59,914 bases of DNA, taken from Candidatus Vecturithrix granuli (GTDB lineage: Bacteria > Moduliflexota > Moduliflexia > Moduliflexales > Moduliflexaceae). Positions within the stretch are counted from its first letter, which is position 1; every line of letters starts with the position of its first letter. The translations under genes were made by a program, and so were the position numbers. Below, in pieces: positions 10,074-40,987 of the stretch. A model generated the notes under the pieces. It was given only the letters and a program-made list of their open reading frames with translations, did no database searches and was not told the DNA's origin. The stretch spans positions 837,680 to 897,593 of the forward strand of contig DF820466.1 of NCBI GenBank assembly GCA_000739535.1. Direction: 5' to 3'.

Positions 10074-11291
10074 ATGTGTCTTGATTATGCGTTTATCGAA
10101 AAACTCTATGAGAGCTTTGGTGCCCAAACAAAGCACAGGATCGATCAGGTTGTTTCAAAAATCGTTCAGACCAAAAAGCAAAACGGTCATGTCGTGGTTG
10201 TGACTGGCAGCGGCCCCAATATCCACGAAGGGGTGACGACCTTGATCGCTGAACTGATTAAGAAAGATCTTATTGATGGCGTGATTACCAGTTCTGCAGT
10301 CATTGCGCATGAAATGGCCGGCAGTCTCGATAAAGTCAAAAGAGTCAAAGGAAAGGAACTTCCCGGAATTCAACCTGAATTTCTCCCGCGAGGATCAATC
10401 TTCGAAGTTACCTTGATGGATAACACGGTATTACATGAATTACAAGAAGAGATGATCATTGATACGGAGCTGATTGAGCGGGTTTTACAGGCTGAAGGTA
10501 CAGTTATCATAAAAGCCGCGGGAAATATGGCGTATCCTATTGGACTAAGAACTGAAAGAATTGCGGCCGAGATCGAAGCCCTCGCTCAACTTGCCGGGAA
10601 ACCCTTCGAGTATATCGCGGGACTGGGAGCCGATCAGCGGACAATGATTGGCGCGGGAGCGCGTAAACAGGTTCCGGTGTTAGTTTCAGTTCCGCAGTTA
10701 ATCGGAGGCGGGAGAGTCGGGTTAGCGATTGGAGATAGCATCCCACTCAAACAACGTTCAAGACTCATCGCTCAAATGCTCGCTCAGGCAGAGGTGATCA
10801 TCGAATCCGGAGTCGCTCTGACTCAGGAAATTCACGATGGCCCCTTTGAAACTTACACCGGCCATGGCATCTGGTCAGCCTGGGAAGGGATTGAAACGTT
10901 CAGCCTTCAAGAGAAAACCCTGGCTCGCATTGATCTTGATCCGAATCTTGAAGAAGTCTGGCGTCTGGAAAAAAGCGGCGGAAGTGTGCAGAAAAGTATT
11001 CACGAAGGTATGCCAAAAACAAAAACGTTTAAAGTGCCGTTCCGCATGGAAATGTCAGGTTTTGCCCGCTTAGAGAGCAGCATTCCCATCGTCGGTGATC
11101 TTGGCGTTGTGTGGCCGATCATTGCAGCGCATGTTTCTCAGCAATTAGGGATAGAATTGGATTTTTGTTCTTATCCGCAGGAGTCTGAGCAAGGGAAACA
11201 GATGCGAGAGTGGATTGTTCAGAATGTGAAGATGCTTAATAAAAAAAGGATGTTGGAATGTATGCAGGGTAATGTGTTGTTTCGGGAATGA
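10074..11291 (+). CDS. Conserved protein of unknown function, possible deoxyhypusine-synthase-like NAD-binding domain
   Basis: A 405-residue soluble protein that I do not recognise as a named family. The N-terminal block GHVVVVTGSGPNIHEGVTTLIAELIKKDLIDG then VITSSAVIAHEM (at about 38-82) recalls the VTGPAVVHTGA.ALA.LI..GYVDALL.GNALAVHD segment of the deoxyhypusine-synthase-like (ArgZ/LOR-SDH) domain; this is a remembered similarity, not a search. Later blocks GLGADQRTMIGAGAR and SVPQLIGGGRVGLAIGDSIPL look like a nucleotide or phosphate site. The start has AAGGAGG eight bases upstream. The last codons (LFRE and stop) fall in a family E repeat. It is 94 bp upstream of kdsB on the same strand. 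Confidence 0.6.
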   Translation: MCLDYAFIEKLYESFGAQTKHRIDQVVSKIVQTKKQNGHVVVVTGSGPNIHEGVTTLIAELIKKDLIDGVITSSAVIAHEMAGSLDKVKRVKGKELPGIQPEFLPRGSIFEVTLMDNTVLHELQEEMIIDTELIERVLQAEGTVIIKAAGNMAYPIGLRTERIAAEIEALAQLAGKPFEYIAGLGADQRTMIGAGARKQVPVLVSVPQLIGGGRVGLAIGDSIPLKQRSRLIAQMLAQAEVIIESGVALTQEIHDGPFETYTGHGIWSAWEGIETFSLQEKTLARIDLDPNLEEVWRLEKSGGSVQKSIHEGMPKTKTFKVPFRMEMSGFARLESSIPIVGDLGVVWPIIAAHVSQQLGIELDFCSYPQESEQGKQMREWIVQNVKMLNKKRMLECMQGNVLFRE

Positions 11292-26060: not shown

Positions 26061-27569
26061 TTACCAGGGTAAATTCAGCCCAAGTTCCTGTTCGATTTTG
26101 CGAGCTTCGGCTTCTGTCAATTGCAGTGCCTGCCGTTTGATTTTCAACACCAGATATTCGTTTGGGGAGAGTTCTTTGTCAATGATCGCAATTTTGAGCA
26201 ATTCACGATATTTGCTCAGGCGAGCCTGTTCATCTTTTTCCTGAGCTTGTAACGTTTGGAGCAGGTCTTTCACCGTTTGAAACCGTTTGGCAGGGTCTTT
26301 TTCTAAACAGCGCAAGACGATGGCGTCAATTGATGGCGAAATGCCAGGGGCTTCCGGCGCACTATACAGATGATGGTAAGCAATGTCTCCCTGAAGAAAC
26401 GGCGGGCTTCCGGTCAGCATTTCATAAAGTACAATCCCCACAGAGTACAAATCTGAGGCGGCCGAAAGCACTTCACCGCGCACCTGTTCCGGCGACATAT
26501 ACGGCAACGTGCCAATTTGCACTGAAAGTTGAGTAAATGCTTGTTGTTCCAGGTTATTCATAAAGGCGATACCAAAATCTCCAAGCTTGATGATATGTTT
26601 TTGGGTGATGAAAATATTAGCCGGTTTGATGTCCCGATGTAAAACCCCGGCCTCGTGCGCCGATTGCAAGGCACGGCACAATTGCAGCAAAATCGTTCTG
26701 GCCTGGGGAACAGCCAACCGTTTATAATGGGTCAGCAAATCGCGCAATGTACCGCCATTGACAAACTCCATGGCAATGCACTGGGCTTCCGGATCGACGT
26801 CATAAATCTCAATGATATTTGGATGATCCAATTGCGCCGCCAGGCGAGCCTCGCGCAGATACTGTTCGCTGTCGACCGGATTCCGGTTCGCCTGCTGGTA
26901 TAACACTTTCAAAGCCACATCGCGTTTGAGTTTCAGGTCAATAGCCTGATAAACGATCCCTGCGCCGCCGCGTCCTAATTCACGCACAATTTCATAGCGT
27001 TCCTGCAAACGGGGATGGAACGTTTGCTGAACAGAGGTCACGGTGGCGGCAGTGGAAATTTTTGTCTTTTGATTCTTTTGCTCCGTCAATTTGGCGAGGC
27101 GTTCTAAGGCATCACGGTAAAAATAATCGGACGCCAACACCCGTTCGTAATACTCTACCGCTTTTTCCCAGGCCCCCTTTTCTTCAAAGCAGGTTCCCAG
27201 CAGATAGAGCGACTCTTTTTGAAATTTCGGATTTGTACGTGTGACTCGTAACTCGGTAATCGCATGACTCCACATCTTGCGATACAGATAAATTTGGGCG
27301 AGTTGAAAGCGCGTCGCCATATCTAACACGCTTTCTTCAACCGATTCTTCCAAAAACGGCAAAAAATCGTAGATCATTTCGCCGTTATCACGTTCATATA
27401 CGCTGACTTTGCGTTCAGCCTGGAGCTGTAGCAGCACATCTTCCAATGCTTCGGGCGTGGCTGGAAGCTTCAACGTGCGAAAATCTCGCGCCGACAAATA
27501 GCCGTTATGGCGAAATGCATGAATGCGCAGCGACGTACAGATACGTTTGTAAACTCTATCCTGATCCAT
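26061..27569 (-). CDS. Serine/threonine protein kinase with N-terminal TPR-like region
   Basis: A soluble Hanks-type kinase, 502 residues. Residues 1-75 look like a winged-helix-type cap; 85-165 are TPR-like helices (MATRFQLAQIYLYRKMW, LLGTCFEEKGAWEKAVEYYERVL). The kinase domain covers about 191-445, with the glycine loop GRGGAG at 199-204, Lys221 (VALKVL), HRDIKPAN at 311-318, DFG at 331-333 and SPEQVRGE. All catalytic residues are present. A helical tail of 55 residues follows. There is no transmembrane segment or external sensor, so input is probably through the TPR region. It neighbours, but is not co-transcribed with, the STAND island. Confidence 0.95.
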   Translation of the reverse strand: MDQDRVYKRICTSLRIHAFRHNGYLSARDFRTLKLPATPEALEDVLLQLQAERKVSVYERDNGEMIYDFLPFLEESVEESVLDMATRFQLAQIYLYRKMWSHAITELRVTRTNPKFQKESLYLLGTCFEEKGAWEKAVEYYERVLASDYFYRDALERLAKLTEQKNQKTKISTAATVTSVQQTFHPRLQERYEIVRELGRGGAGIVYQAIDLKLKRDVALKVLYQQANRNPVDSEQYLREARLAAQLDHPNIIEIYDVDPEAQCIAMEFVNGGTLRDLLTHYKRLAVPQARTILLQLCRALQSAHEAGVLHRDIKPANIFITQKHIIKLGDFGIAFMNNLEQQAFTQLSVQIGTLPYMSPEQVRGEVLSAASDLYSVGIVLYEMLTGSPPFLQGDIAYHHLYSAPEAPGISPSIDAIVLRCLEKDPAKRFQTVKDLLQTLQAQEKDEQARLSKYRELLKIAIIDKELSPNEYLVLKIKRQALQLTEAEARKIEQELGLNLPW

Positions 27570-28088: not shown

Positions 28089-28407
28089 GTACATACCTCT
28101 GAAAGCATGAAGTGCCTATGTTCTACGTATCATCACTGTTCCCTTTTATTATAAAAGAGTAAATCTTTGGATCATTTCGACATATAAAAAAATTTTTTAT
28201 GAATGTGTGTTTGGTCATTGTATGTCTTGACTCGCCATCCACAAGAAGAGGTAACCGATGAATCCTTCCGACATGAGCATCAACATTTTTTATCGTATAT
28301 TTGGCGCGAATTTATTTTCTTGACGCACGACTTTTATGGACTGATATAATGAGGGAAAATAACGGAGATCTTGAGATAAAGCCCTTCATGATGATGGAAC
28401 AAACGGT
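28089..28407. other. 319-bp intergenic region, divergent start region
   Basis: It lies between the minus-strand Mth938-like gene and the plus-strand Cys-rich gene and must contain promoters for both. No palindrome or family repeat is present, unlike most gaps of this size here. No convincing promoter pair is evident. Confidence 0.4.
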
Positions 28408-29169
28408 ATGGCAATTGACTTGATCGCAAAGTACTGCCAAACATGTCAGCATTATATCCAGGTCACGCAGGAATGTTGTTTGCTCAAAGAGAACCGATTG
28501 GAGGTCATCTTTGCAATAGGTCCGTGTCAGCCTGCTGAAATGGTGAGACAAGTGGTAAAATCGCTGCTTTCTAAACGCCGAAATGAGCGGAAGAATCTTA
28601 CTCAGGATATTCTTTCGACCGCGTTTGAACTGACCGAATTGCTGAAGCAACAGCGTTTGACCAAACGCTTTACCATTTATGCCCTGAAAAGTTATCTGAC
28701 CAAAACGATTCGTGAGCGATTACTCCCTCGCCTCCATTGTGAAGATTGCAGCTATCTTTCCTTGACAAAACCAGCAATCTGTCAACGCGAGACGATCATA
28801 AGTGCCAATGGGGAGGTCGTGAACCCGAATTATGGAAACAAGCGTTTCCCGTCTGATCATGCCTGTACTGGATTCGAAGCGTTGGCGCCGTCCGGTTCCG
28901 CAGAAATAAATTCTGAAAACAAGATATTGCTGCTGCTTATAGCGGATGCCTTATCACAGCGGGCAGTACATGCAAGAGATCAAAATAAAGCAGAATATGA
29001 GCGTCACTATCTGGTATTCAGTTTGTTGGTTCAATGGTGTGAGGAAGAAGATTGCTCCTGGCAGGAATGGAAGCAATACACAGCGAGCTTATTTCATAAG
29101 ACAGTACGAACGATTGAACGAGATCTCGATAAAATGATCAAATTTTTACAAGAGAGTGATGTCATTTAA
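28408..29169 (+). CDS. Cys-rich protein, possible sigma-factor-like regulator with two zinc knuckles
   Basis: A 253-residue protein I cannot place firmly. Two cysteine sets are seen: C10, C13, C23/C24, C40 and C111, C114, C125, C153, both of CxxC-x10-C-xn-C form and likely zinc knuckles. Between them, LTQDILSTAFELTELL then FTIYALKSYLTKTIRERLL (64-105) recalls sigma region 2. The C-terminal part SWQEWKQYTASLFHKTVRTIERDLDK (217-242, read in parts) recalls the helix-turn-helix of region 4. The following gene encodes a zinc-finger anti-sigma-like protein 54 bp downstream, which supports the idea. The region 2/4 match is by eye and weak; a zinc-binding adaptor is the alternative. Confidence 0.4.
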   Translation: MAIDLIAKYCQTCQHYIQVTQECCLLKENRLEVIFAIGPCQPAEMVRQVVKSLLSKRRNERKNLTQDILSTAFELTELLKQQRLTKRFTIYALKSYLTKTIRERLLPRLHCEDCSYLSLTKPAICQRETIISANGEVVNPNYGNKRFPSDHACTGFEALAPSGSAEINSENKILLLLIADALSQRAVHARDQNKAEYERHYLVFSLLVQWCEEEDCSWQEWKQYTASLFHKTVRTIERDLDKMIKFLQESDVI

Positions 29170-29223
29170 TGCCCCAAATTTCCTCTTCTACCTATAGAAG
29201 GGAAGTCAATTGAGGTGAAAAAC

Positions 29224-29859
29224 ATGCCAAATAAGAATATACAATCTCAAGAGGATTTCGTGGCGCTTCTCAAGCAAGACATCCAGACGGATGAATACCG
29301 CCGGTTGAAAGCCATTGAAAGCCAGACCCCTCATCCAGCACAGGAGAGACTTGCTGAATATGCGGCTGGGCGCCTACCAGAGGCCGATATAGAGGTCATC
29401 TGTAAACATCTGTTCTTTTGCAAGAGTTGTGCAAAACACGTCGCAGGATGGATGCGAAATCAAACGCTGAAGGATATTTCTGGTATTCTTCCAGAGTCGA
29501 TTTTAGCTACTGAATATTGGCAACCCGATTATGCCGGATTGCAAGCCACTGCCGCCGATATTCCTCAGCAAAAATATACGTTTCACCTGAGTGAAGGCGA
29601 TATTCAAGTGACCTGTAACTGGGGCGGCCCTCAGGGCAGCGACCCGGCGTTTATCTGGCTGAAATGGCAGGCGAATATTGAGGAAGAACGCGAGTTTTAT
29701 GCACAGTTTGTCGATCCGGAAACCCAGACCATTCGTTATGCGGCTCGTCTGGGAACCCACCTGGAAGGCGAGGAAACGTTTAGCAGCCGGGAATTGGGCT
29801 TTGATCCGTCCCACGAACGCTGGGCGGTGGCAATCGTATTGAAAGAAGCGGGAGAATAA
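29224..29859 (+). CDS. Putative anti-sigma-type zinc-finger protein
   Basis: A 211-residue protein. The segment HPAQERLAEYAAGRLPEADI followed by CKHLFFCKSC (about 37-69) fits the zf-HC2 zinc finger of anti-sigma factors, with ligands Cys/His-x3-Cys-x2-Cys. The remaining C-terminal ~100 residues (YTFHLSEGDIQVTCNWGG...FIWLKWQAN...FVDPETQTIRYAARLGTHLEG) look like a beta-sandwich domain and contain no membrane helix, unlike most anti-sigma factors. The ATG at 29224 has GAGGTG upstream. It is followed immediately by a short overlapping frame and then the STAND gene. Confidence 0.6.
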   Translation: MPNKNIQSQEDFVALLKQDIQTDEYRRLKAIESQTPHPAQERLAEYAAGRLPEADIEVICKHLFFCKSCAKHVAGWMRNQTLKDISGILPESILATEYWQPDYAGLQATAADIPQQKYTFHLSEGDIQVTCNWGGPQGSDPAFIWLKWQANIEEEREFYAQFVDPETQTIRYAARLGTHLEGEETFSSRELGFDPSHERWAVAIVLKEAGE

Positions 29860-29947
29860 TGGCGAAGTTGGTTTACTCTCAATTCTGGCCGATTGCACTG
29901 TACCAGAATATGCTTGAGGAAGATGAATATGTTAAAGGAAAGAATGT

Positions 29948-32900
29948 ATGGATGAACATGTTGCATTTGACCAGACGAAGAAAAATGATGGCTCATCATC
30001 CCTGTCGGTACCCATCCGTCATTTTGCTTATCCTAACGTTAAAATCAGTCAGAATTCTTTCATCGGCTGTGGGCGGTATCTCGCCATACTGCCTGAAGAA
30101 GTATCGGAAGGCCAGCGGTATGAATTAATCGCGGCAAAGGTCATTGATTTCACTGCAAATGTGTATACGGCTGTGGCGAAGTTTGCGCCGGAATCCTCGG
30201 CGTCCAAAAAGAAAATTTATGAACGCAAGGATGTCTTAGAGGCGAAGTACTTCGGTCCCTCGCAAAATCTCGCGTATTTTTTGGCCTTAATTAGCCGCTC
30301 CAGACCGCTCAAATTGCAGGGGATTCGGGGCGACATCTGGTGCACCGGGGCGCTTGAGTGTAGCAATGGCAACCAGATGATATTGGAAGGCGTCAATGCG
30401 ATAGGATTTGACATTAAGGTTCGTGCGTTTCTTGCAGACAAAAATTCGGATACACTCTTCTTGATCCCGGAATCCGATGCCCAAACTCTTAATGAAGAAG
30501 AGGTCAAGGTACATCATGCCAGTCTGGTAGATTTACAGACGTTCTGCCATCGTTCCCCCCAGGAACATGCTGCGGGCAAATGGCTGATCCGCATTCGGCC
30601 TGAAGAACTCGGTCTATTGGTGAAGTTTCTTTTCGATAAACCGAAAATTCAACTTCCGGCACTGCCGATTCCCCCTAACCCCTATCGCGGCTTATTTGCG
30701 TTTCGGGAAGAGGATGCACTCTATTTTTTCGGCCGCGAAACCTTTATCCAACAGCTTGTCAACGCCGTCGAGCAGAAGCCGTTCGTGGCCGTTATAGGTC
30801 CTTCCGGTAGTGGAAAATCTTCAGTGGTCTATGCCGGATTGATCCCGTATTTACTAAGGCAAACAGACCCCTCTTTGGAAGGACCAGAGAGAGAAACTCG
30901 TGGTCAAGTTGATCACACAACGGCACAATGGCGCGTTGCCTCATTTCGTCCCGGTGCAGATCCGTTTTGGGGCTTGTCAACGGCGTTGATTGCCTTATGG
31001 CATCCGGAGTTGACGGAAGAAGGCAAACGTGTTCACATCAAGGAACTCCATGTCCGGTTGATAAATCGTGAAGTTCATCTGTCTGAGATGGTCAACCAAC
31101 TTCAAATATCCCAGCCCCAGATCCGGATGCTCCTGTATATTGACCAGTTCGAAGAATTATACACCCTGTGTTCATCCGAACAGGAACGGCGCTGGTTTCT
31201 GGATGAATTGCTAGCTGTGACCGGGACCTCTCATTTTTCAAAATTCGCGCCGCTCTCTGTCGTCCTCACCTTGCGAGCCGACTTTTTAGGCAAAGCATTA
31301 GCCTATCGTCCATTTGCCGATGCCTTACAACATACTGATCTTAAACTTGGACCGTTGAACCGGGATGAATTACGCACCGCTATTGAATGTCCGGCAACCC
31401 TTTTGCAGGTGGAGATTGAAGATGGGCTGGCCGATCGGATTCTGGACGCCCTGAAGGATGAACCAGGTACCCTGCCGTTATTGGAATTTGCATTGACTGA
31501 ACTCTGGCAGCACCAGTCATACCGCACATTAACTCATGCAGCTTATAGTGCGATCGGCAGGCTCAAACATGCGTTAGCGGCGTATGCCGAACAGGTGTAT
31601 CATCGCCTTTTGCCTGAAGCCCAGGACCAGGCGCAGTTCATCTTCATGCAATTAGTCCATCCTGGTGAAGGCACGGACGATACCCGCCGAGTCGCCACCA
31701 AAGCCGAGATTGGAGAAGCACGTTGGAGAGTGGTGACCATCCTGGCGGATGCCCGGTTGGTGGTGACCAGTGGGGATCAGGAACACGAGGAAACGGTTGA
31801 ACTTGTGCATGAAATTCTGATTCAAGGCTGGCAGCGTTTGCAGGAGTGGATCGCCGCTGACCGGGAATTCCGGCTCTGGCAGGAACGCCTGCGAACAGCT
31901 ATGCAACCCTGGAAACGAGAGGACCATGATAGGAACCTGCTGTTACAAGGAACCCCTCTCGCAGAAGCCGAATTTTGGTTAAACACCCGTGAGCATCACC
32001 TCAGTTTGGAAGAACGGCACTTCATTGAGGTCAGTATCTATGATCGTCACCGCAGGCAACGATTCAAACGATTGGGGATTACAGCGGCTCTGACGATCTC
32101 AATTTTTATCGCGGTCGTTCTTGGAGTTCTCAGGCAACAGGCGTTCAGGAATGCTGAAGAAGCTCGCCAACAAACTCAAATTGCAGATGAACAGCGTAAA
32201 AAAGCTGAAGTCAATCAAATAGAAGCCCTCAAACAGGCATCAAAAGCAATGTTTGTTTCTGGTGAAGATGATTTAGGCGCTTTGCTTATAGGAATAAAAA
32301 TAGCTAAAATGTCAAAATATCTTAAGCTGCCAATATCCTTGAATGTTCAAATAATTGAGAACCTTCGGGAAATCGTCTATGGCATTCATGAAAAAAATCG
32401 TTTAGCAGGGCATGTACATGATGTATCAAGTGTTGATTTCAGCCCAGACGGAAATTTGCTTGCCTCAGGAAGTTATGATGGTAATATTAAACTGTGGAAT
32501 GTTCGTGATGGGCATGAGATTGCCACATTACGAGGACATTCGGAAAGCGTGATTAGTGTCACGTTCAGTCCGGATGGAAGCCTGCTTGCTTCAGGAGACT
32601 ATAACGGTGAAATCAAGCTTTGGAATGTCAAGGGCAGAGATGAAATTATGAGTTTTGTATGCTCTTCTGAACATGATTTTGAAGATAACAACATGAAATT
32701 TGTACTCCCTTTTAGAGGACCTGAGCTGGATAAAACGATGGAAGTTGCGGGTCTTGTTTTCTCTTCCGAACCAGGAGCTTTACAATATCATGGAACAAAG
32801 GTTGTATTTAGTCCAGATGGAAAAATACTAATTGGAAGTTGTGGTAGTGATATCAAACTTTGGACTACTAATAATGGACATGAAATTATTACGTTACAAG

Positions 32901-34663
32901 GCCATTCTGGAGATGTGAATAATATTGTACTTAATCCGAAAGGGACCATCCTGGCATCAATCGCAAATCTTTATGACAGTAGTGAAATGAAACTCTGGAA
33001 TATTGAAAATGGAGATGAAGTCGGTAATCTACAGGATAAAATAGGATTTACAAGTCTCTCATTTAATCCGGATGGAACATTATTGGTAACAGGCACGATA
33101 GGTGGAAGCATTATATTTTGGGATCTGGAAAATGGACGTGCCTCGTTCGTGTTACACCATCCAGAAGAAGTGACAAGTCTTGCATTCAATCCTGATGGAA
33201 AATTGCTTGCTTCAGGGAGTACAGATCGAACGATTAAACTCTGGAATGTTATTGAGAGACGTGAAGTCAAAACATTGAAGGGACATTTAGATAGAGTGAC
33301 AAGTATTAGGTTCAATCTGGAAGGCAGCATCTTGGCGTCAGCAAGCGCTGATCGAATCGTTAAACTCTGGAATATTGTTGATAGACAAGCAACAGTAATC
33401 TTGAAAGGACATTCTGGGAGTGTTAACACTCTCAGTTTTAATAGAGATGGCAGACTCCTAGCATCAGGAAGTGATGACAAAACTATTAAACTCTGGGATA
33501 TTGCAAAACAATCTGAAATTACGGCATCAATGAGTCATCAGAGAAGAGTTACAAAGGTTGCATTTCACCCAAATGATACATTACTTTTTTCAGGAGATAC
33601 AGGTTCAAACGCTGAACTTTCAGGTCCCGTTTTAGGGACTAACATTTTAATGAGAGGAGGGAAAAATTGCGAGTGGCCCGATGAGAAGCTGAACAAGCAA
33701 ATACTTAATCCCCATTTGAGGTTAGGATCCTTTCCTCAAGGAACGATGAAATTTTGGAATATTCTCGATAAATCTGAAATTACAACAATAAATCGTTCGG
33801 ACTGGACAAATTTCATAATCAGTCCTCTGTGGAAGTTTCTTGCTGCAAAAGGTCCTGGCACTGTAAAGATGGTGAATGCCACAAAAACATCCCCAGAGAT
33901 TGGGGAGCATTTAAACTATTATGATGGGGTGTTTCCTCTTACTTTTAGCCCAAATGGAAAACTGCTTGCTTCAACCCATTATGGTCCTATTACGCTTCAT
34001 AAAATTCCTGTTGAAGTTACTGAATTCGGGTTTAAGAATTTTGATGAAGCTAACTTTTTGACATTGTGGAAGAAATATGATGCTTGTGATGTGACTGAAT
34101 TTATGGGCAGTCCAGATGGCGGGATGATGGCTTTAGGAGATAACTCTATGGCTATTAAAGTTTGGAATGTTGAGGATGGGCGTGAGCTCTTAACTTTGCC
34201 AGGACATTCCATGATTGTCGAAAGTCTATCGTTCAGTCCGGATGGCAAGTTGCTCGCATCAGGAAGCGCTGACCGAACGATTAAACTTTGGAATATTGCT
34301 GATGGGCGTGAAATTTTCACTTTGCAAGGACATTCTATGTCTGTTGAGAGTCTCACATTTAGCCCAGATGGAAAGTTACTTGTATCAGGAAGTGCTGACA
34401 ATACGATTAAATCTTGGAATATTAGTGATGGACAGGAGATTTTCACCTTGCGAGGACATTCTGATCGCATTAACGATATCACATTCAACACTGATGGAAC
34501 ATTGCTTGCATCTGCTAGTTCTGATCACACAATAAGACTTTGGAATTTTGATATAGATGATCTGCTATTCCAGGGATGTGATTGGGTGCGAGGCTATTTG
34601 AAGAATAATCCTAATGTCAATAGTGAAGATCACACATTGTGTGACGATATTCTGAAGCGTTAA
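29948..34663 (+). CDS. Lon-protease-like domain fused to STAND (nSTAND1) ATPase, membrane segment and WD40 repeats
   Basis: A 1571-residue multidomain protein. Residues ~40-235 resemble the Lon (S16) proteolytic fold: FGPSQNLAYFLALIS then WCTGAL, and IGFDIKVRAFL then TLFLIPES. They would give a Ser105/Lys157 dyad like that of Lon. Residues ~243-690 are an nSTAND1 ATPase: NPYRGLFAFREEDA, FFGRE, Walker A GPSGSGKS (284-291), LLYIDQFEELYTL and a winged-helix region ending in ELVHEILIQGWQRL. A transmembrane helix follows at about 707-727, then a coiled coil (728-760), then about 15 WD40 repeats (818-1540), enough for two propellers. The tail GCDWVRGYL...LCDDIL is typical of STAND-WD40 proteins. 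Base composition falls sharply in parts of the WD40 half. Confidence 0.88.
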   Translation: MDEHVAFDQTKKNDGSSSLSVPIRHFAYPNVKISQNSFIGCGRYLAILPEEVSEGQRYELIAAKVIDFTANVYTAVAKFAPESSASKKKIYERKDVLEAKYFGPSQNLAYFLALISRSRPLKLQGIRGDIWCTGALECSNGNQMILEGVNAIGFDIKVRAFLADKNSDTLFLIPESDAQTLNEEEVKVHHASLVDLQTFCHRSPQEHAAGKWLIRIRPEELGLLVKFLFDKPKIQLPALPIPPNPYRGLFAFREEDALYFFGRETFIQQLVNAVEQKPFVAVIGPSGSGKSSVVYAGLIPYLLRQTDPSLEGPERETRGQVDHTTAQWRVASFRPGADPFWGLSTALIALWHPELTEEGKRVHIKELHVRLINREVHLSEMVNQLQISQPQIRMLLYIDQFEELYTLCSSEQERRWFLDELLAVTGTSHFSKFAPLSVVLTLRADFLGKALAYRPFADALQHTDLKLGPLNRDELRTAIECPATLLQVEIEDGLADRILDALKDEPGTLPLLEFALTELWQHQSYRTLTHAAYSAIGRLKHALAAYAEQVYHRLLPEAQDQAQFIFMQLVHPGEGTDDTRRVATKAEIGEARWRVVTILADARLVVTSGDQEHEETVELVHEILIQGWQRLQEWIAADREFRLWQERLRTAMQPWKREDHDRNLLLQGTPLAEAEFWLNTREHHLSLEERHFIEVSIYDRHRRQRFKRLGITAALTISIFIAVVLGVLRQQAFRNAEEARQQTQIADEQRKKAEVNQIEALKQASKAMFVSGEDDLGALLIGIKIAKMSKYLKLPISLNVQIIENLREIVYGIHEKNRLAGHVHDVSSVDFSPDGNLLASGSYDGNIKLWNVRDGHEIATLRGHSESVISVTFSPDGSLLASGDYNGEIKLWNVKGRDEIMSFVCSSEHDFEDNNMKFVLPFRGPELDKTMEVAGLVFSSEPGALQYHGTKVVFSPDGKILIGSCGSDIKLWTTNNGHEIITLQGHSGDVNNIVLNPKGTILASIANLYDSSEMKLWNIENGDEVGNLQDKIGFTSLSFNPDGTLLVTGTIGGSIIFWDLENGRASFVLHHPEEVTSLAFNPDGKLLASGSTDRTIKLWNVIERREVKTLKGHLDRVTSIRFNLEGSILASASADRIVKLWNIVDRQATVILKGHSGSVNTLSFNRDGRLLASGSDDKTIKLWDIAKQSEITASMSHQRRVTKVAFHPNDTLLFSGDTGSNAELSGPVLGTNILMRGGKNCEWPDEKLNKQILNPHLRLGSFPQGTMKFWNILDKSEITTINRSDWTNFIISPLWKFLAAKGPGTVKMVNATKTSPEIGEHLNYYDGVFPLTFSPNGKLLASTHYGPITLHKIPVEVTEFGFKNFDEANFLTLWKKYDACDVTEFMGSPDGGMMALGDNSMAIKVWNVEDGRELLTLPGHSMIVESLSFSPDGKLLASGSADRTIKLWNIADGREIFTLQGHSMSVESLTFSPDGKLLVSGSADNTIKSWNISDGQEIFTLRGHSDRINDITFNTDGTLLASASSDHTIRLWNFDIDDLLFQGCDWVRGYLKNNPNVNSEDHTLCDDILKR

Positions 34664-34805
34664 ACGTTTGAAATGCGTGAAGACACAGCCTAAGGAGATT
34701 TCGAAGACAATGAATCATTTGATCCCTTGTGAAGGGAGTAACTTCCTTATGACTCTTGCTCCGAGGAGAGCAGAGTTCATTCGGAAATGTTGCCAGACAT
34801 AATGT

Positions 34806-35672
34806 ATGTTCGGTTTACCGCTGTTTACGGTAGCGATAATGATTTTGACAGTCGCGGTCAGTTTGGAAGGTTTTTATCGTCCTGAACTGGTCTCAAAATA
34901 TTGGTTTGAGCCGAAACGCATTCTGGAGCACAAAGAGTATTATCGGCTGTTCACGAGCGCACTGGTGCATGCGGATGTCACCCACCTTGCGTTCAATATG
35001 TTTACCCTGTTCTCCTTTGGAAGTAAGCTTGAAATGGCGGCGCCTGCGGGGACTTTCGCCTGTGCTCTCATCTATGCGGCCAGTGTGTTGGGGGGCAATC
35101 TGTTGGCCTTGTATCTGCACCGCCACCATGTCTATCGGGCCTTAGGGGCCTCAGGCGGCGTGTGTGGGAGTATTTTTGCTGCTATCATGCTGTTTCCGGG
35201 CATGTCCCTGTATATGTTTTTCATCCCGGTACCGATTCCGGCGAGTCTGTACGCTCTTCTTTTTGTGATCTTTTCTGTCTGGGGTATTCGTACTCGATTC
35301 GGTCATATCGGGCATGACGCCCATCTGGGCGGCGCGATGATCGGTCTCCTGGCGACCGCCGTGTTCTATCCTGCAGTGATTCTGCGCCATCTGCTTCTAT
35401 TTTGCGCCATTTTAGGCGTTTCTGGGGCGGGGCTGGCCTACCTGTATCAGGCCCCCGGGTTTTTGCCCAAATCGCATGGTTTCAGCCGAACCTCCTGGAA
35501 GGGTTTTTGGTCCAAACAAAAACGACGCCAGCAGACGAAACAGTGGATAACGGATGAAGAAGCTATTGATCGTCTGTTAGATAAAGCAATCGAGTTTGGC
35601 ATGGAGAGCTTAACCGATTGGGAGCGGCAAGAATTGGAACGCCTTGCTCAAAAAAGACGTAAACGCCAGTGA
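34806..35672 (+). CDS. Rhomboid family intramembrane serine protease
   Basis: Six-helix membrane protease, 288 residues. The family blocks are complete: HADVTHLAFNMFTLF (about 55-69), GASGG with Ser116, and HIGHDAHLGGA with His173, giving the Ser/His dyad. A soluble C-terminal tail (about 215-288) contains the DRLLDKAIEFGMESLTDWERQEL segment, read as DRLLDKAIEFGMESLTDWER, common in one rhomboid subgroup. It follows the STAND gene by 142 bp on the same strand and precedes an HExxH protein. Rhomboids can release membrane-tethered regulators; a link to the membrane-anchored STAND protein is inference. Confidence 0.93.
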   Translation: MFGLPLFTVAIMILTVAVSLEGFYRPELVSKYWFEPKRILEHKEYYRLFTSALVHADVTHLAFNMFTLFSFGSKLEMAAPAGTFACALIYAASVLGGNLLALYLHRHHVYRALGASGGVCGSIFAAIMLFPGMSLYMFFIPVPIPASLYALLFVIFSVWGIRTRFGHIGHDAHLGGAMIGLLATAVFYPAVILRHLLLFCAILGVSGAGLAYLYQAPGFLPKSHGFSRTSWKGFWSKQKRRQQTKQWITDEEAIDRLLDKAIEFGMESLTDWERQELERLAQKRRKRQ

Positions 35673-35713
35673 ATAATCTGAAATAATGGAGATGAGGAGG
35701 TCATAGACAAACT

Positions 35714-36721
35714 ATGGAACATCTGATTACTTGTGAAGTGTGCGGCGCCCGGAATCGGGTACGATCCCATTCGAAGCCGCGCCAACCCATTTGCGGCAAA
35801 TGTCATGCGCCGCTGAAGGAAAAACTGTTTGACCGCGTTATGCAGACTGTCGGAACGGTAGTGTCTGAGGCCGGACAGATCCTCACGGATTTGACTGCCG
35901 CTTCGTCTTCTCCACAGCCGCCTCAGCGGGAGACTCCGCCGACTGATCAAACGATCCCGGGGTTTTCCTTTGATCCTGAACTGCACCAGGTGTTGAGCCA
36001 TCTTGCGGAAGTGGCCTGGACCAATCCTAATAGATCGCCAGAGGGATTTCTGCTTATGCCGGACCGTTTAGGATGCCCGACGCTGTCCCAGGAAATCCGG
36101 CAAACCTTTGACCACTTGTATGCGCATGTGCGGACCTGGGCGCCGGGCTTCAATGTCCCCTACAGTCTCCCGGAGATCAAGATTGTGCGGATTGATGACT
36201 ACAAAACGGCCGGACAGTTTGCGATGGGGGAGCATCCGGTGGTGACAGTGGCCGAGAAATATCTTGCCACGCCTTCGGTCTTGCGCCTGATTTTGGCTCA
36301 TGAAGCCTGCCATCATATTTTACACCTCTCATCCCTTGAGGATCCGAATCGCCAGGCAAATGAGCGCAAAACGGATTTGAGCATGTTTATTTGCGGGTTT
36401 GGAGAGATTGCACAGCAAGGATACACAACGGTACATCGCCAATTTTTGACCACACACATTCTGCACTTAGGGTATCTCCAGGCCAGAGAATACCAACAAG
36501 CCTATAAATGGGCGCGCCAACGGCGAGATGAATTGTTCCGCAATATTGATCGCTTTCCCGGCGCAGAAGCCCAACTCTATAGACGATTACTTACTATTGT
36601 GCACGGAGATCACCAGGCATTGGAGCGCTGGCGAGACCGGGCCGCCAACCGGTATCCCCGCTTAGCCACCGTCGAACTGTACCAGACCATGCTCGACGAA
36701 TACCAACGTGATAATCGGTAG
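35714..36721 (+). CDS. Zinc-ribbon protein with HExxH metallopeptidase-like domain
   Basis: A 335-residue soluble protein. A zinc ribbon at the N-terminus (CEVCGARNRVRS...CGKCHAPL, Cys7/10 and 27/30) is followed by a linker and a helical/peptidase-like region. The motif LILAHEACHHILH places His196, Glu197 and His200 as a catalytic HExxH, with Glu217 or Asp221 (NERKTDLSMFICGFG) as a likely third ligand. Related sequences with ERxxD after HExxH are seen in minigluzincin-type peptidases. The final 100 residues contain TPR-like helices. No signal peptide. It lies 41 bp after the rhomboid gene and is probably co-transcribed. Confidence 0.65.
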   Translation: MEHLITCEVCGARNRVRSHSKPRQPICGKCHAPLKEKLFDRVMQTVGTVVSEAGQILTDLTAASSSPQPPQRETPPTDQTIPGFSFDPELHQVLSHLAEVAWTNPNRSPEGFLLMPDRLGCPTLSQEIRQTFDHLYAHVRTWAPGFNVPYSLPEIKIVRIDDYKTAGQFAMGEHPVVTVAEKYLATPSVLRLILAHEACHHILHLSSLEDPNRQANERKTDLSMFICGFGEIAQQGYTTVHRQFLTTHILHLGYLQAREYQQAYKWARQRRDELFRNIDRFPGAEAQLYRRLLTIVHGDHQALERWRDRAANRYPRLATVELYQTMLDEYQRDNR

Positions 36722-37048: not shown

Positions 37049-37966
37049 ATGATGCCTTTACAAACACAATCCAGCACAGCGACGCTGAAAATTCTGCTGC
37101 TGGCGGGGATGGTTCTGCTGATTTTCATGGTGCTTGCAAGTACCCTTTCTTCGGTAGAGCTTGCTCCCGGGGATTCTTCGCTTTTGCAGCAATTGTTGCA
37201 ACGCCTGAAACCGCAGGCTGAAGATGAACAAATGACCTCGCCAATCGGGAGTATGCTGGTCCTGGGCATTTTGCGTTTCATGATCTTGTTCATGATTATC
37301 GGCCTCCCCTTTGCCGCGATCTATTTCGTCATTTCGCCGGAATTTCGACGACAGGTCATGCGGCAATCTGTCAGAGCCGGGATGCTGCTGGTCGGATTGT
37401 ATTTGATCATCCGCTTACGCTTGCTGCATTCACTTGATAAACTGTGGGATCATTCTCTGGCCGACAGAGAAATCAATGCTGACGCCGCTCAAATCTTGAA
37501 AGCCCTTGATGCGCTCAGCACCGATCCTCCGCGCTGGATTATTCTGCTCTCCAGTTTTCTACTGGCCTTGCTGTTGTCAGCAGGAATCTTATGGGGAATA
37601 CAATTTCTCCGGCGGCGCGGACAGCCTGCGCCTGAAATCGCATTTGAGGAACTGGCCGATGTGGTCCAGAGTGCAATTGTTACCTATCATACTGGCGGAA
37701 GCTTTAAAAATGTCATTATTCGTTGCTATGTGGAAATGAGCGCGGCTGTGGAAAAATACCGGGGCATTCAACGCCAGGATACGATGACGCCGCGGGAATT
37801 TGAAATGCAATTAACCCAGATCGGGTTTCCCCCGGAACCAATTCGATACCTGACCAGAATGTTTGAAGTTGTCCGTTATGGCACCCAAATCCCTGGCGAG
37901 GCTGAAGAGCAGCAAACTATGTACAGCCTCGCCGCCATCATTAACGCCTGTCAACAACATTCATGA
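37049..37966 (+). CDS. Membrane protein with C-terminal DUF4129 domain
   Basis: A 305-residue protein with about four membrane helices (near 14-34, 72-96, 108-124 and 165-187). The C-terminal domain (about 205-300) has the DUF4129 pattern IIRCYVEMSAAVEKYRGIQR, then MTPREFEMQLTQIG and RMFEVVRYG. In many bacteria this domain is encoded in MoxR-DUF58-DUF4129 operons, sometimes on a transglutaminase-like protein. Here it heads exactly such an operon, without any transglutaminase domain. The ATG at 37052 is an equally possible start. It overlaps the next gene by four bases. Confidence 0.85.
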   Translation: MMPLQTQSSTATLKILLLAGMVLLIFMVLASTLSSVELAPGDSSLLQQLLQRLKPQAEDEQMTSPIGSMLVLGILRFMILFMIIGLPFAAIYFVISPEFRRQVMRQSVRAGMLLVGLYLIIRLRLLHSLDKLWDHSLADREINADAAQILKALDALSTDPPRWIILLSSFLLALLLSAGILWGIQFLRRRGQPAPEIAFEELADVVQSAIVTYHTGGSFKNVIIRCYVEMSAAVEKYRGIQRQDTMTPREFEMQLTQIGFPPEPIRYLTRMFEVVRYGTQIPGEAEEQQTMYSLAAIINACQQHS

Positions 37967-38634
37967 ATATTATCGCATTCCTCAAACGCAAACAAAGAGT
38001 ATGGACGTGGATTCAGATTCTCATCCTGGCAGCCTTCTTCATGTGGTTTGTTCAGGATCTGGCGCGTCAAACGATTGCTGTTTCCCTGGTTTCTTTGCTA
38101 TGGGGGGCAAAACTCCTTTTATACACCCTGCCGCAACCGCTCATCTGGGGCGTCTTTTTGGTGATCGGGACATATATTTTGTTGAAAAGTCTGATTCCTT
38201 CGCAACTTTTTCAGTCTCAAAAGGGGGGAACAGTTTCTGAAACCCATGGGAAAGTCGAGAAATTAGCTGATCTGTTTCAGCTTGCGAACCAGAGCGAGTA
38301 TTCACGCCGAAAACTCGCGCAATATTTGACCACAGTGACGCTTGACATTCTGGAGTTTCAAAGGCAAGAATCGCGTGAACAGCTTTATCGGGCATTGCAA
38401 ACCGGAAGCCTTGAGATCGATCAAGAATTGCGACAGTATTTTCAAACAGCTCTTGCAAAGAAAACTGTGAGTTCTTCTACCGGGCTATGGGCTAAAATTC
38501 ATGAGAGATTTGCTGCGCAGAAACAACAGACTCCGCTTGACCTGGAACCGGTCACGATTATTCGTTTTTTAGAAGACCAATTAGAAGGGGGCGGTAAGAA
38601 AAACCGGGTTTCCTTGAAGAAACCCGATTTTTAG
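37963..38634 (+). CDS. Conserved membrane protein of the MoxR/DUF58 operon
   Basis: A 223-residue protein with two N-terminal helices (about 14-36 and 45-75) and a soluble helical C-terminal part (KLADLFQLANQSEYSRRKLAQYL...). No named domain recognised. The start overlaps the DUF4129 stop (ATGA). Its last dozen residues (KNRVSLKKPDF) are encoded by a family G hairpin (38596-38632), so the C-terminus was remodelled by a repeat. Its position between DUF4129 and MoxR suggests a structural role in the same complex. Confidence 0.75.
   Translation: MNIIAFLKRKQRVWTWIQILILAAFFMWFVQDLARQTIAVSLVSLLWGAKLLLYTLPQPLIWGVFLVIGTYILLKSLIPSQLFQSQKGGTVSETHGKVEKLADLFQLANQSEYSRRKLAQYLTTVTLDILEFQRQESREQLYRALQTGSLEIDQELRQYFQTALAKKTVSSSTGLWAKIHERFAAQKQQTPLDLEPVTIIRFLEDQLEGGGKKNRVSLKKPDF
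38596..38632. repeat. Family G hairpin forming a gene 3' end
   Basis: AAGAAAAACCGGGTTTCC...GAAGAAACCCGATTTTT lies in frame at the end of the 37963 gene, immediately followed by its TAG. A half family A arm (38641-38669) and another family G hairpin (38688-38722) follow within 90 bp. Confidence 0.85.
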
Positions 38635-38687
38635 ACATACATGCGCGAAATACAATTTCGCGCTACATTTTAGAGGGGAACAGTAAT

Positions 38688-38722
38688 AAAAACCAGGTTT
38701 TTTCGAAAAAAACCTGGTTTTT
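38688..38722. terminator. Family G hairpin before moxR, terminator-like
   Basis: AAAAACCAGGTTTTTTCG/AAAAAAACCTGGTTTTT is a strong stem followed by T residues on both strands, 17 bp upstream of the MoxR gene start. It could attenuate transcription between the first two genes and the MoxR-DUF58 part of the operon, or be only a repeat. Confidence 0.55.
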
Positions 38723-38738
38723 AAGGGAGAGCACGAAT

Positions 38739-39704
38739 ATGAAGGCTTGTGATGTCTCAACTTGCACGAATCGTGTTATTGAAGAAATCGAACGGGTGGT
38801 GGTGAGTAAACGGCAGGTATTAGAAACACTTATGACTGCGATGTTGACCCCGGGCGGACACGTGCTGTTAGAAGATTATCCCGGATTGGCGAAAACCCTG
38901 ATCGCCAACAGTTTTGCAACAGTTTTAGGATTGTCATTTAAACGCATTCAATTCACGCCCGATTTGTTGCCCGGCGACATTACCGGCGGCTATGTGTACG
39001 AACAGGCGCAGAACCTATTTACCCTGCGCAAAGGGCCGATTTTTGCCAATATCATCCTGGCGGATGAAATCAACCGCGCCTCGCCCAAGACCCAATCCGC
39101 CCTGCTGGAAGCGATGCAGGAATATCAGGTCACGTTGGAAGGAGAAACCCTGAAACTTCCGGAACCCTTCATTGTGATCGCCACCCAGAACCCGATTGAA
39201 TATGAAGGTACTTTCCCCCTACCGGAGGCGCAACTTGATCGCTTTATGATGAAATTGTCAATCGGCTATCCAACCGTGGAGGCTGAACAGGAAATTTTAC
39301 GCCGCCGCCGGGAGTGGCGCAGCGATAGCTTACAATTACATCAGGTCACGAATACGGAGGAATTGCTGGCTATGCGGCAGGCGATTGAAAGCGTGCATGT
39401 TGAACCTGATCTTGAACGCTATATCGTTGAACTGGTTGGTGAGACTCGCCAACGCACGGAAATTGCGGTAGGTGCCAGTCCGCGCGGATCCTTAGCACTG
39501 TTGAAATTGACGCGCGCCTGGGCCGCGATGCAAGGTCGGGAATATGTGATCCCTGATGATATTAAAACCTTTGTCAGACCAGTGCTGAGGCATCGCCTGA
39601 TCCTGGAACCGGATTTATGGATGAAGCGGCACGCTGCTGATAAAGTCTTAGAGGATATTCTGCACTCGGTTCGTGTTCCGGTGCTGACTACGGAAGCATC
39701 ATGA
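38739..39704 (+). CDS. MoxR family AAA+ ATPase
   Basis: A 321-residue MoxR-type chaperone ATPase. The Walker A region reads HVLLEDYPGLAKTLIAN, Walker B ILADEINRASPKTQSALLEAMQE (read as LADEINRASPKTQSALLEAM), then sensor-1 FIVIATQNPIEYEGTFPLPEAQLDRF in parts (ATQNPIEYEGTFPLPEAQ). The lid contains VGASPRGSLALLKLTRAWA. Such proteins work with DUF58/vWA partners, remodelling protein or metal-containing complexes. The start follows GGGAGAGC, and its end overlaps the DUF58 gene by ATGA. Confidence 0.95.
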   Translation: MKACDVSTCTNRVIEEIERVVVSKRQVLETLMTAMLTPGGHVLLEDYPGLAKTLIANSFATVLGLSFKRIQFTPDLLPGDITGGYVYEQAQNLFTLRKGPIFANIILADEINRASPKTQSALLEAMQEYQVTLEGETLKLPEPFIVIATQNPIEYEGTFPLPEAQLDRFMMKLSIGYPTVEAEQEILRRRREWRSDSLQLHQVTNTEELLAMRQAIESVHVEPDLERYIVELVGETRQRTEIAVGASPRGSLALLKLTRAWAAMQGREYVIPDDIKTFVRPVLRHRLILEPDLWMKRHAADKVLEDILHSVRVPVLTTEAS

Positions 39705-40987
39705 AAAGATCATTATTCATCAGTATTCTGGTGTATATCATTCTGTTGGCCGGGCTTGCTACCCTGGATGGACATCTGCTATCCCTGGGTATTCCTCTGT
39801 TACTCTATCTGGTCTCAGGCAGTGTGTTTCGTCCACAGAGCCTCGATTTGCAGATCAGCCGCACCATCAGCGATGAAAGCGTGACTCCGGATTCCCCTGT
39901 CACGATAACTCTCAGGGTGCTCAATAACAGCGGATATCTTGAAGAAGTGTTTATACAGGATGTGCTTCCGTCTGAATTAACGCTGATTCGGGGGAACTCG
40001 CAGTGTTTTACGTCATTGGCGCCGGGTGAGACCATCGTTATGGAATATGCCGTGCGAGGTAAACGGGGGAGTTTTGAATTTGGCGCAGTTCAGGTCTATG
40101 CTAGTGATTCCTTTGATCTGGTGCACCAGCAGAAAAGCTTTTCGGTTCCGGCGCGTTTGCTGATCTTGCCGGAAGTTCGGAAATTAGGTCGGTTTGCGAT
40201 CCGTCCGATGCGTACTCGTTTTTATGCAGGACAGAATCTTTCCCGGCAAAGCGGTTCGGGCACCGATTTTTTCGGCGTGCGCATGTATCAGCCGGGCGAT
40301 CCCTTACGCACAGTCAACTGGCGTATCAGTGCGCGTCACCCGCGCTGGATCTTTGCCAACGAATATGAATCTGAACGGATTGCTGATGTGGGCTTGATTC
40401 TGGATGCCAGAAAGCGTAACGATGTGCAAACCGACCAGGATTCACTTTTTAATCACGCCATTCAGGCGACCGCATCGTTGGCAGAAGCGTTTTTAAGCGA
40501 TAGTAACAGAGTCGGCTTGCTCATTTACGGCGGGACGTTGGCGCGGACTTTTCCGGGCTATGGCAAAATACAGCGCGAACGTATTTTGCGTGCTCTGGCT
40601 CAGTCTCAAACCGGGGATCATCAGGTTTTCAAAGCTCTCAGTTATCTGCCAACCCGATTTTTCCCGGCTAAATCGCAACTGGTGCTGATCAGTCCACTGT
40701 GTCCCGAAGACCTGCCGGTGCTGCAACATTTGCGAGCCTTTGGCTATCATCTCATGGTTCTCAGCCCCGACCCGATTGCTTTTGAATACGCCAAACTACC
40801 GGCAGGGCCAGAGATTGAACAGGCCGTTCGGATTGCATATCTGGAGCGAAAGCTTCTGCTGCGTAAACTGAGGCGCATGGGGATTCTGGCAGTTGATTGG
40901 CAGGTTGACACCCCTTTGGAACAGACTGTGCTGGCATCGCTGAAGCGTTTGCCACACTGGCTGCGCACGACGGAGACTGCCCTATGA
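39701..40987 (+). CDS. DUF58 domain protein (vWA-like)
   Basis: A 428-residue protein with two N-terminal membrane helices (about 5-35), a beta-rich CARDB-like segment (VTPDSPVTITLRVLNNSGY) and the DUF58 core VRMYQPGDPLRTVNWRISARH then VGLILDARKR, a vWA-type fold. This is the standard partner of MoxR. It is translationally coupled on both sides: ATGA with moxR upstream and with the 162-residue gene downstream. The cellular role of these systems is diverse and cannot be read here. Confidence 0.93.
   Translation: MKRSLFISILVYIILLAGLATLDGHLLSLGIPLLLYLVSGSVFRPQSLDLQISRTISDESVTPDSPVTITLRVLNNSGYLEEVFIQDVLPSELTLIRGNSQCFTSLAPGETIVMEYAVRGKRGSFEFGAVQVYASDSFDLVHQQKSFSVPARLLILPEVRKLGRFAIRPMRTRFYAGQNLSRQSGSGTDFFGVRMYQPGDPLRTVNWRISARHPRWIFANEYESERIADVGLILDARKRNDVQTDQDSLFNHAIQATASLAEAFLSDSNRVGLLIYGGTLARTFPGYGKIQRERILRALAQSQTGDHQVFKALSYLPTRFFPAKSQLVLISPLCPEDLPVLQHLRAFGYHLMVLSPDPIAFEYAKLPAGPEIEQAVRIAYLERKLLLRKLRRMGILAVDWQVDTPLEQTVLASLKRLPHWLRTTETAL

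Follow-up and report, generated by a model that had tools for sequence, protein, structure and literature searches.

What joins five consecutive genes at positions 28408 to 36721 of a 59,914-nucleotide stretch of the Candidatus Vecturithrix granuli genome (assembly GCA_000739535.1, contig DF820466.1; this whole stretch is called the window here), and do they form one system? A preliminary description, made from the sequence alone, read them as a single island of regulated proteolysis, in which a Cys-rich sigma-like protein, a zf-HC2 anti-sigma-like protein, a STAND ATPase with a protease-like N-terminus and a membrane anchor, a rhomboid protease and a zinc-ribbon HExxH protein would act together. 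A check of the open reading frames (ORFs) of the window returns all five (ORF1 to ORF5) at these positions, consecutive and on the plus strand. However, the conserved unit consists of the first three genes only: the order regulator, ORF2, Lon-like protein is found at ten loci. This genome accounts for three of these and a named KSB3 relative for one; another phylum contributes five and a third lineage the last. Recurrence in distant genomes is therefore a property of these three genes (ten loci, three lineages) and not of all five. The three genes and their parts are as follows.

28408 to 29169, plus strand: ORF1, 253 residues, Cys-rich protein in the regulator position (ORF call; Cys4 motifs common to the paralogue at locus L008)
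29215 to 29859, plus strand: ORF2, 214 residues from GTG (211 from the ATG at 29224) (zf-HC2, ChrR family, predicted model, fold matches)
29332 to 29463, plus strand: ChrR-like zinc anti-sigma (ZAS) segment of ORF2, with H-x3-C-x2-C (Pfam, TIGR02451, VIA-align)
29503 to 29856, plus strand: C-terminal beta-sandwich of ORF2, the part kept in all module loci (alignment; MATH/TRAF-like fold)
29948 to 34663, plus strand: ORF3, 1571 residues, Lon-like peptidase, nSTAND1, membrane helix and WD40 (ORF call, Pfam, predicted model)
30005 to 30667, plus strand: divergent Lon (S16) peptidase domain, residues 20-240 of ORF3 (profile, model, fold matches)
30260 to 30262, plus strand: codon of the predicted catalytic Ser105, GPS motif (invariant in 10 homologues; aligned with Ser582 of LonC)
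30416 to 30418, plus strand: codon of the predicted catalytic Lys157 (invariant in 10 homologues; aligned with the LonC/LonB lysine)
30680 to 31933, plus strand: nSTAND1 signalling NTPase domain, residues 245-662 of ORF3 (PF20703, E 6e-117)
32072 to 32128, plus strand: one predicted transmembrane helix, residues 709-727, with a strongly basic N-terminal flank (hydrophobicity)
32420 to 34570, plus strand: WD40 repeat region, the presumed sensor (PF00400, E 4e-114, 11 stretches)

The Lon-like N-terminus of ORF3 exists in three copies in this genome and in one copy in the KSB3 relative, all four in the order regulator, ORF2, Lon-like protein, and this relative was the sole return of a scan of genome contigs. 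A profile of the four ORF2 proteins led to relatives in two genomes of another phylum, in which the following gene codes for a Lon-like protein that is divergent and has a membrane helix. When a profile was built from the KSB3 Lon-like sequences alone, its best match within each of the loci L035, L036 and L037 was the ORF directly after ORF2. A further Lon-like match (G134, locus L038) falls in a histidine kinase region and was judged to be due to chance. Two more module loci and an orphan Lon-like gene from a third genome of that other phylum emerged from later searches; the third-lineage module (G570), whose Lon-like gene runs off the contig end, was reached via a different search centre and represents a separate lineage, not necessarily a separate phylum. 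The total is ten module loci and one orphan, and at the nine loci measured the module genes are separated by -49 to +201 bases, with several overlaps, which suggests that they form operons. The orphan (L044:4543-6711) combines the Lon-like domain with a membrane helix and WD40, with no ORF2 or regulator nearby.

The contig that holds the window is 898 kb long and the genome 8.4 Mb. As the contamination estimate of this genome bin is 10.75%, statements on lineage rest on the three module copies in the bin together with the named relative. The latter, which is the nearest relative to bear the module, is recorded as candidate division KSB3, a phylum of filaments with large genomes and many signalling genes (PMC4312070).

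Evidence that ORF3 begins with a Lon-type domain comes from both sequence and structure comparisons. A profile of ten family members picks up ordinary LonB proteases in other genomes, whose identity PF05362 (Lon_C) confirms and whose GxS serine and lysine align with those of the family, and a comparison of the Lon-like profile with the PDB matches MtaLonC at E 0.002, including its Ser582. The predicted model of the domain (predicted local distance difference test score, pLDDT, 84) has A. fulgidus Lon as its top Foldseek match (E 3.8e-4), and VIA-align superposes it on Lon with a Z of about 13 and a root-mean-square deviation (rmsd) of 3-4 over about 160 residues, a Z equalled by the Lon-fold regions of ComM and RadA. 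Only eight columns are invariant in ten very divergent Lon-like sequences, and Ser105 and Lys157 belong to them. The N-terminus of ORF3 is, by these comparisons, a divergent S16-type domain that retains the Ser-Lys dyad, and it is predicted to be proteolytically active.

The part attached to this domain, sensor or effector, is the variable one. In the window and in the KSB3 relative it comprises nSTAND1, a single membrane helix and WD40, so that the STAND ATPase with a protease-like N-terminus and a membrane anchor of the preliminary description is borne out in each respect (nSTAND1, a real Lon-type domain, helix 709-727). The basic N-terminal flank of this helix suggests a probable topology with the Lon and NTPase parts in the cytoplasm and the WD40 repeats outside. 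The Lon-like protein at L008 carries NB-ARC and TPR, and that at L009 (L009:4554-7223) a TIR_2 domain (E 2e-25) fused directly to the Lon-like domain, both without a membrane helix, while those of the other phylum have a membrane helix alone or a membrane helix with WD40. The protease-TIR combination at L009 is in itself unusual.

The anti-sigma-like character attributed to the second gene also stands. ORF2 reaches 22.3 bits against zf-HC2 (PF13490; cut-off 22.2, E 1.4e-4) and matches the ChrR family TIGR02451 at E 1.6e-5, and the ZAS segment of its predicted model (pLDDT 77) aligns with ChrR of the SigE-ChrR complex (2z2s_F) over 57 residues with an rmsd of 2.5 and a VIA-align Z of 8.8, a modest value given that the domain is small and helical. 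Both family and fold identify the N-terminus of ORF2 as a zinc anti-sigma domain, for which binding and inhibition of a sigma factor are predicted. Only the window and L008 copies keep the zinc motif, which the other loci have lost. The C-terminal part, a predicted beta-sandwich, is closest to MATH/TRAF domains (Z about 8), a likeness that is suggestive only. Taken as a whole, ORF2 is probably an inhibitor and a putative protease substrate.

How might three such proteins work together? We give roughly an even chance to the reading that ORF1, ORF2 and ORF3 are a three-component signalling module, in which a sensor-gated Lon-type peptidase cuts ORF2 and frees ORF1. More specifically, ORF3 would be a membrane receptor whose WD40 repeats and nSTAND1 NTPase detect a signal and probably form oligomers, and oligomerisation would activate the N-terminal Ser-Lys peptidase domain on the cytoplasmic side. 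The likeliest substrate would be ORF2, with its zinc anti-sigma domain holding ORF1 and its MATH/TRAF-like sandwich docking to the receptor; once ORF2 is cut, ORF1 would be free and transcription would be altered. A precedent exists in CalpL, a Lon-SAVED protease of type III CRISPR, which oligomerises via its sensor domain and whose Lon domain cuts the anti-sigma factor CalpT, freeing the ECF sigma factor CalpS (PMC12751052, PMC11417357). Both systems comprise three genes, for an N-terminal Lon peptidase with a sensor, an anti-sigma-like partner and a sigma or sigma-like regulator, and in both an oligomerising sensor is expected to activate the protease. They differ in the sensor, which is nSTAND1-WD40, NB-ARC-TPR, TIR or a membrane helix in the module and SAVED in CalpL, in the build of ORF2 (ZAS plus beta-sandwich) and in the regulator, which in the module is exchangeable (sigma, Cys-rich or XRE-like). 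Since ORF3 lacks the SAVED sensor, the module is not a member of the CalpL-CalpT-CalpS system; CalpL chains are absent among the sequence or fold matches listed for the Lon-like domain, and kinship with CalpL is nonetheless conceivable. There is no CRISPR-type repeat array in the window, and none of the flanking genes checked, which cover part of the neighbourhood, is a cas gene. By analogy, the module is best read as a CRISPR-free counterpart of CalpL-CalpT-CalpS, with its likeness divided between loci: at L067 the sigma factor and Lon are clear and ORF2 has no zinc motif, and in the window and at L008 the zinc anti-sigma domain and Lon are clear and the regulator is not demonstrably a sigma factor.

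ORF1 and its single paralogue (L008) have two Cys4 motifs in common and nothing else that is recognisable, so ORF1 is Cys-rich as had been claimed, and by sequence it is a candidate sigma factor only. Several results weigh against the release of a sigma factor by proteolysis. No family match in Pfam, NCBIfam, PADLOC or profile-profile alignment places ORF1 as a sigma factor; its score against a profile of the genome's own extracytoplasmic function (ECF) factors is no better than that of shuffles, a pairwise shuffle test against the regulator of the KSB3 relative gives p 0.12, and a profile of the four proteins in the regulator position does no better than shuffled controls. The XRE-like regulators and zinc-motif-free ORF2 proteins of some loci mean that anti-sigma action is not general in the strict sense, and a Lon fold need not mean proteolysis, as RadA, ComM and BrxL illustrate. 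A PADLOC match of ORF1 to Cmr5 (E 0.0095) was treated as chance.

Elsewhere the regulator position is occupied by various proteins. At L067 it holds a genuine ECF sigma factor, with a match to TIGR02937 (sigma70-ECF) at E 1.2e-10 and 41.2 bits, slightly below the curated 42.9, and one to PF04542 at E 0.003; the regulator of the KSB3 relative is weakly sigma-like (E 0.004), those at L009 and L087 are sigma-like by eye only, and in four loci the regulator is a small XRE-like protein, again by eye. At L037 a second XRE-like regulator (L037:4904-5392) lies directly 3′ of the Lon-like gene and resembles the one preceding ORF2. For genes 1 to 3, sensor-triggered proteolysis that frees a sigma-like protein is thus the best-supported reading, on the strength of the recurrent order, the invariant dyad, the ChrR-like domain and the ECF sigma factor of L067; the preliminary description had extended it to five genes, which does not hold.

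Other explanations lead away from proteolysis or from transcription. The Lon-like domain may be structural or autoprocessing, and oligomerisation of the receptor may sequester or release ORF2 conformationally and uncut, as ZAS anti-sigma factors often do. Non-proteolytic Lon folds (RadA, ComM and BrxL) do occur among the structural matches of the domain, and the separate beta-sandwich of ORF2 could dock on the receptor; but with both catalytic residues among so few invariant columns of such divergent sequences, the conservation of the dyad is hard to explain without catalysis, and we regard this explanation as rather unlikely. Somewhat more doubtful still is a conflict system for non-self recognition or abortive infection, in which receptor activation would start a lethal or dormancy programme and the regulator would only control the operon. 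The replacement of STAND by TIR in the L009 paralogue would fit such a role, as would the differences between copies in their STAND and WD40 parts, which recall the constant-variable systems of Kaur et al. (PMC7159879, PMC8195603). However, no PADLOC defence model fits the module beyond generic repeats, the window copy has no recognisable killing domain, and no Lon-like relatives were found among the viral contigs and plasmids searched.

The remaining explanation depends on the last two genes: all five would act as one cascade of proteolysis, started by the Lon-like domain and completed by the rhomboid and the HExxH protease.

34806 to 35672, plus strand: ORF4, rhomboid intramembrane protease, 288 residues, outside the conserved module (PF01694, E 7e-25)
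35714 to 36721, plus strand: ORF5, zinc-ribbon HExxH protein, 335 residues, outside the conserved module (sub-threshold SprT-like match; plain HEACHH motif)

Both are what they had been taken for. They lie on the same strand as the module, with gaps of 142 bases (ORF3 to rhomboid) and 41 bases (rhomboid to HExxH), and in a sequence scan nothing resembling a terminator or a promoter turned up in the first of these gaps, so that they may share a transcript with the module. Nothing, however, shows a function shared with it: neither protein has a homologue within the sequence retrieved for the nine other Lon-like loci tested (the G570 locus lies outside that set), the HExxH protein has no full-length relative in the 59 genomes searched, and the rhomboid relatives in KSB3 genomes lie elsewhere, away from the module. 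The cascade is thus very improbable, and the five genes cannot be kept as one unit.

Returning to receptor-gated cleavage of ORF2, its parts can be compared with other known systems. The peptidase fold and the Ser-Lys dyad in register are those of the LonB/LonC proteases (S16), whereas ORF3 lacks the Lon AAA+ module and carries its peptidase domain at the N-terminus of a receptor. The N-terminus of ORF2 matches ChrR of the Rhodobacter SigE-ChrR pair in fold and family; ChrR has a cupin-type sensor domain, whereas ORF2 carries a MATH/TRAF-like sandwich and is partnered by a protease gene. Csx30 is linked to the sigma factor RpoE, and in Csx29-Csx30-RpoE a protease likewise cuts a partner tied to a sigma factor, but this protease is of the caspase type and under an RNA-guided effector, with no Lon, STAND or WD40. 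Csx29 is the TPR-CHAT protease of type III-E CRISPR (PMC10028731). The EACC2-caspase systems (ECF sigma factor, DUF1822 protein) also place a constant protease domain with a variable part beside an ECF sigma factor and an accessory protein (PMC8195603); their peptidase is a caspase, here it is Lon-type, and neither a Lon domain nor a zinc anti-sigma partner appears in that paper. The word Lon was not found in the papers of Kaur et al. (PMC8195603, PMC7159879), and no description of a Lon-based module (Lon with STAND, sigma, WD40 or TIR) was found in the open-access papers searched.

A broader proposal can be made tentatively, namely that the module represents an undescribed family of receptor Lon proteases in large-genome bacteria. 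Interchangeable sensors (STAND-WD40, NB-ARC-TPR, TIR, membrane helices) would gate the peptidase, a dedicated adaptor (anti-sigma or MATH-like sandwich) would be cut and interchangeable regulators would be released, with CRISPR CalpL-CalpT-CalpS as one specialised branch. If this is true, transcription control by protease release of the CalpL-CalpT-CalpS type would be a general bacterial module with many sensors, including eukaryote-like STAND-WD40 receptors, and no peculiarity of CRISPR. STAND-WD40 proteins, few of whose outputs are known in bacteria, would gain a testable job, and a MATH/TRAF-like adaptor would adjoin a STAND receptor in bacteria, which have been stated to lack MATH domains (PMC8195603).

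Upstream of ORF1 there is one further feature.

28320 to 28350, plus strand: promoter-like element (TTGACG, 19-base spacer, TATAAT; by eye from the sequence)

This element falls outside the promoter scan, which allowed spacers of 16-18 bases. Further upstream, a gene for a TPR and Ser/Thr protein kinase protein lies on the minus strand (26061-27569); a kinase gene is also found near the module in L067, possibly by coincidence. Directly 3′ of the five genes there is an ordinary MoxR-type cluster (37049-40987), which encodes a DUF4129 protein, a small membrane protein, a MoxR AAA ATPase (weak bpMoxR match) and a DUF58 protein. At 2033-2126 the window contains two 47-base repeats, head-to-tail and with an internal inverted repeat (GCGCGAAACT...), and an ORF at 10074-11291 has a borderline match to deoxyhypusine synthase, which is unexpected for a bacterium.

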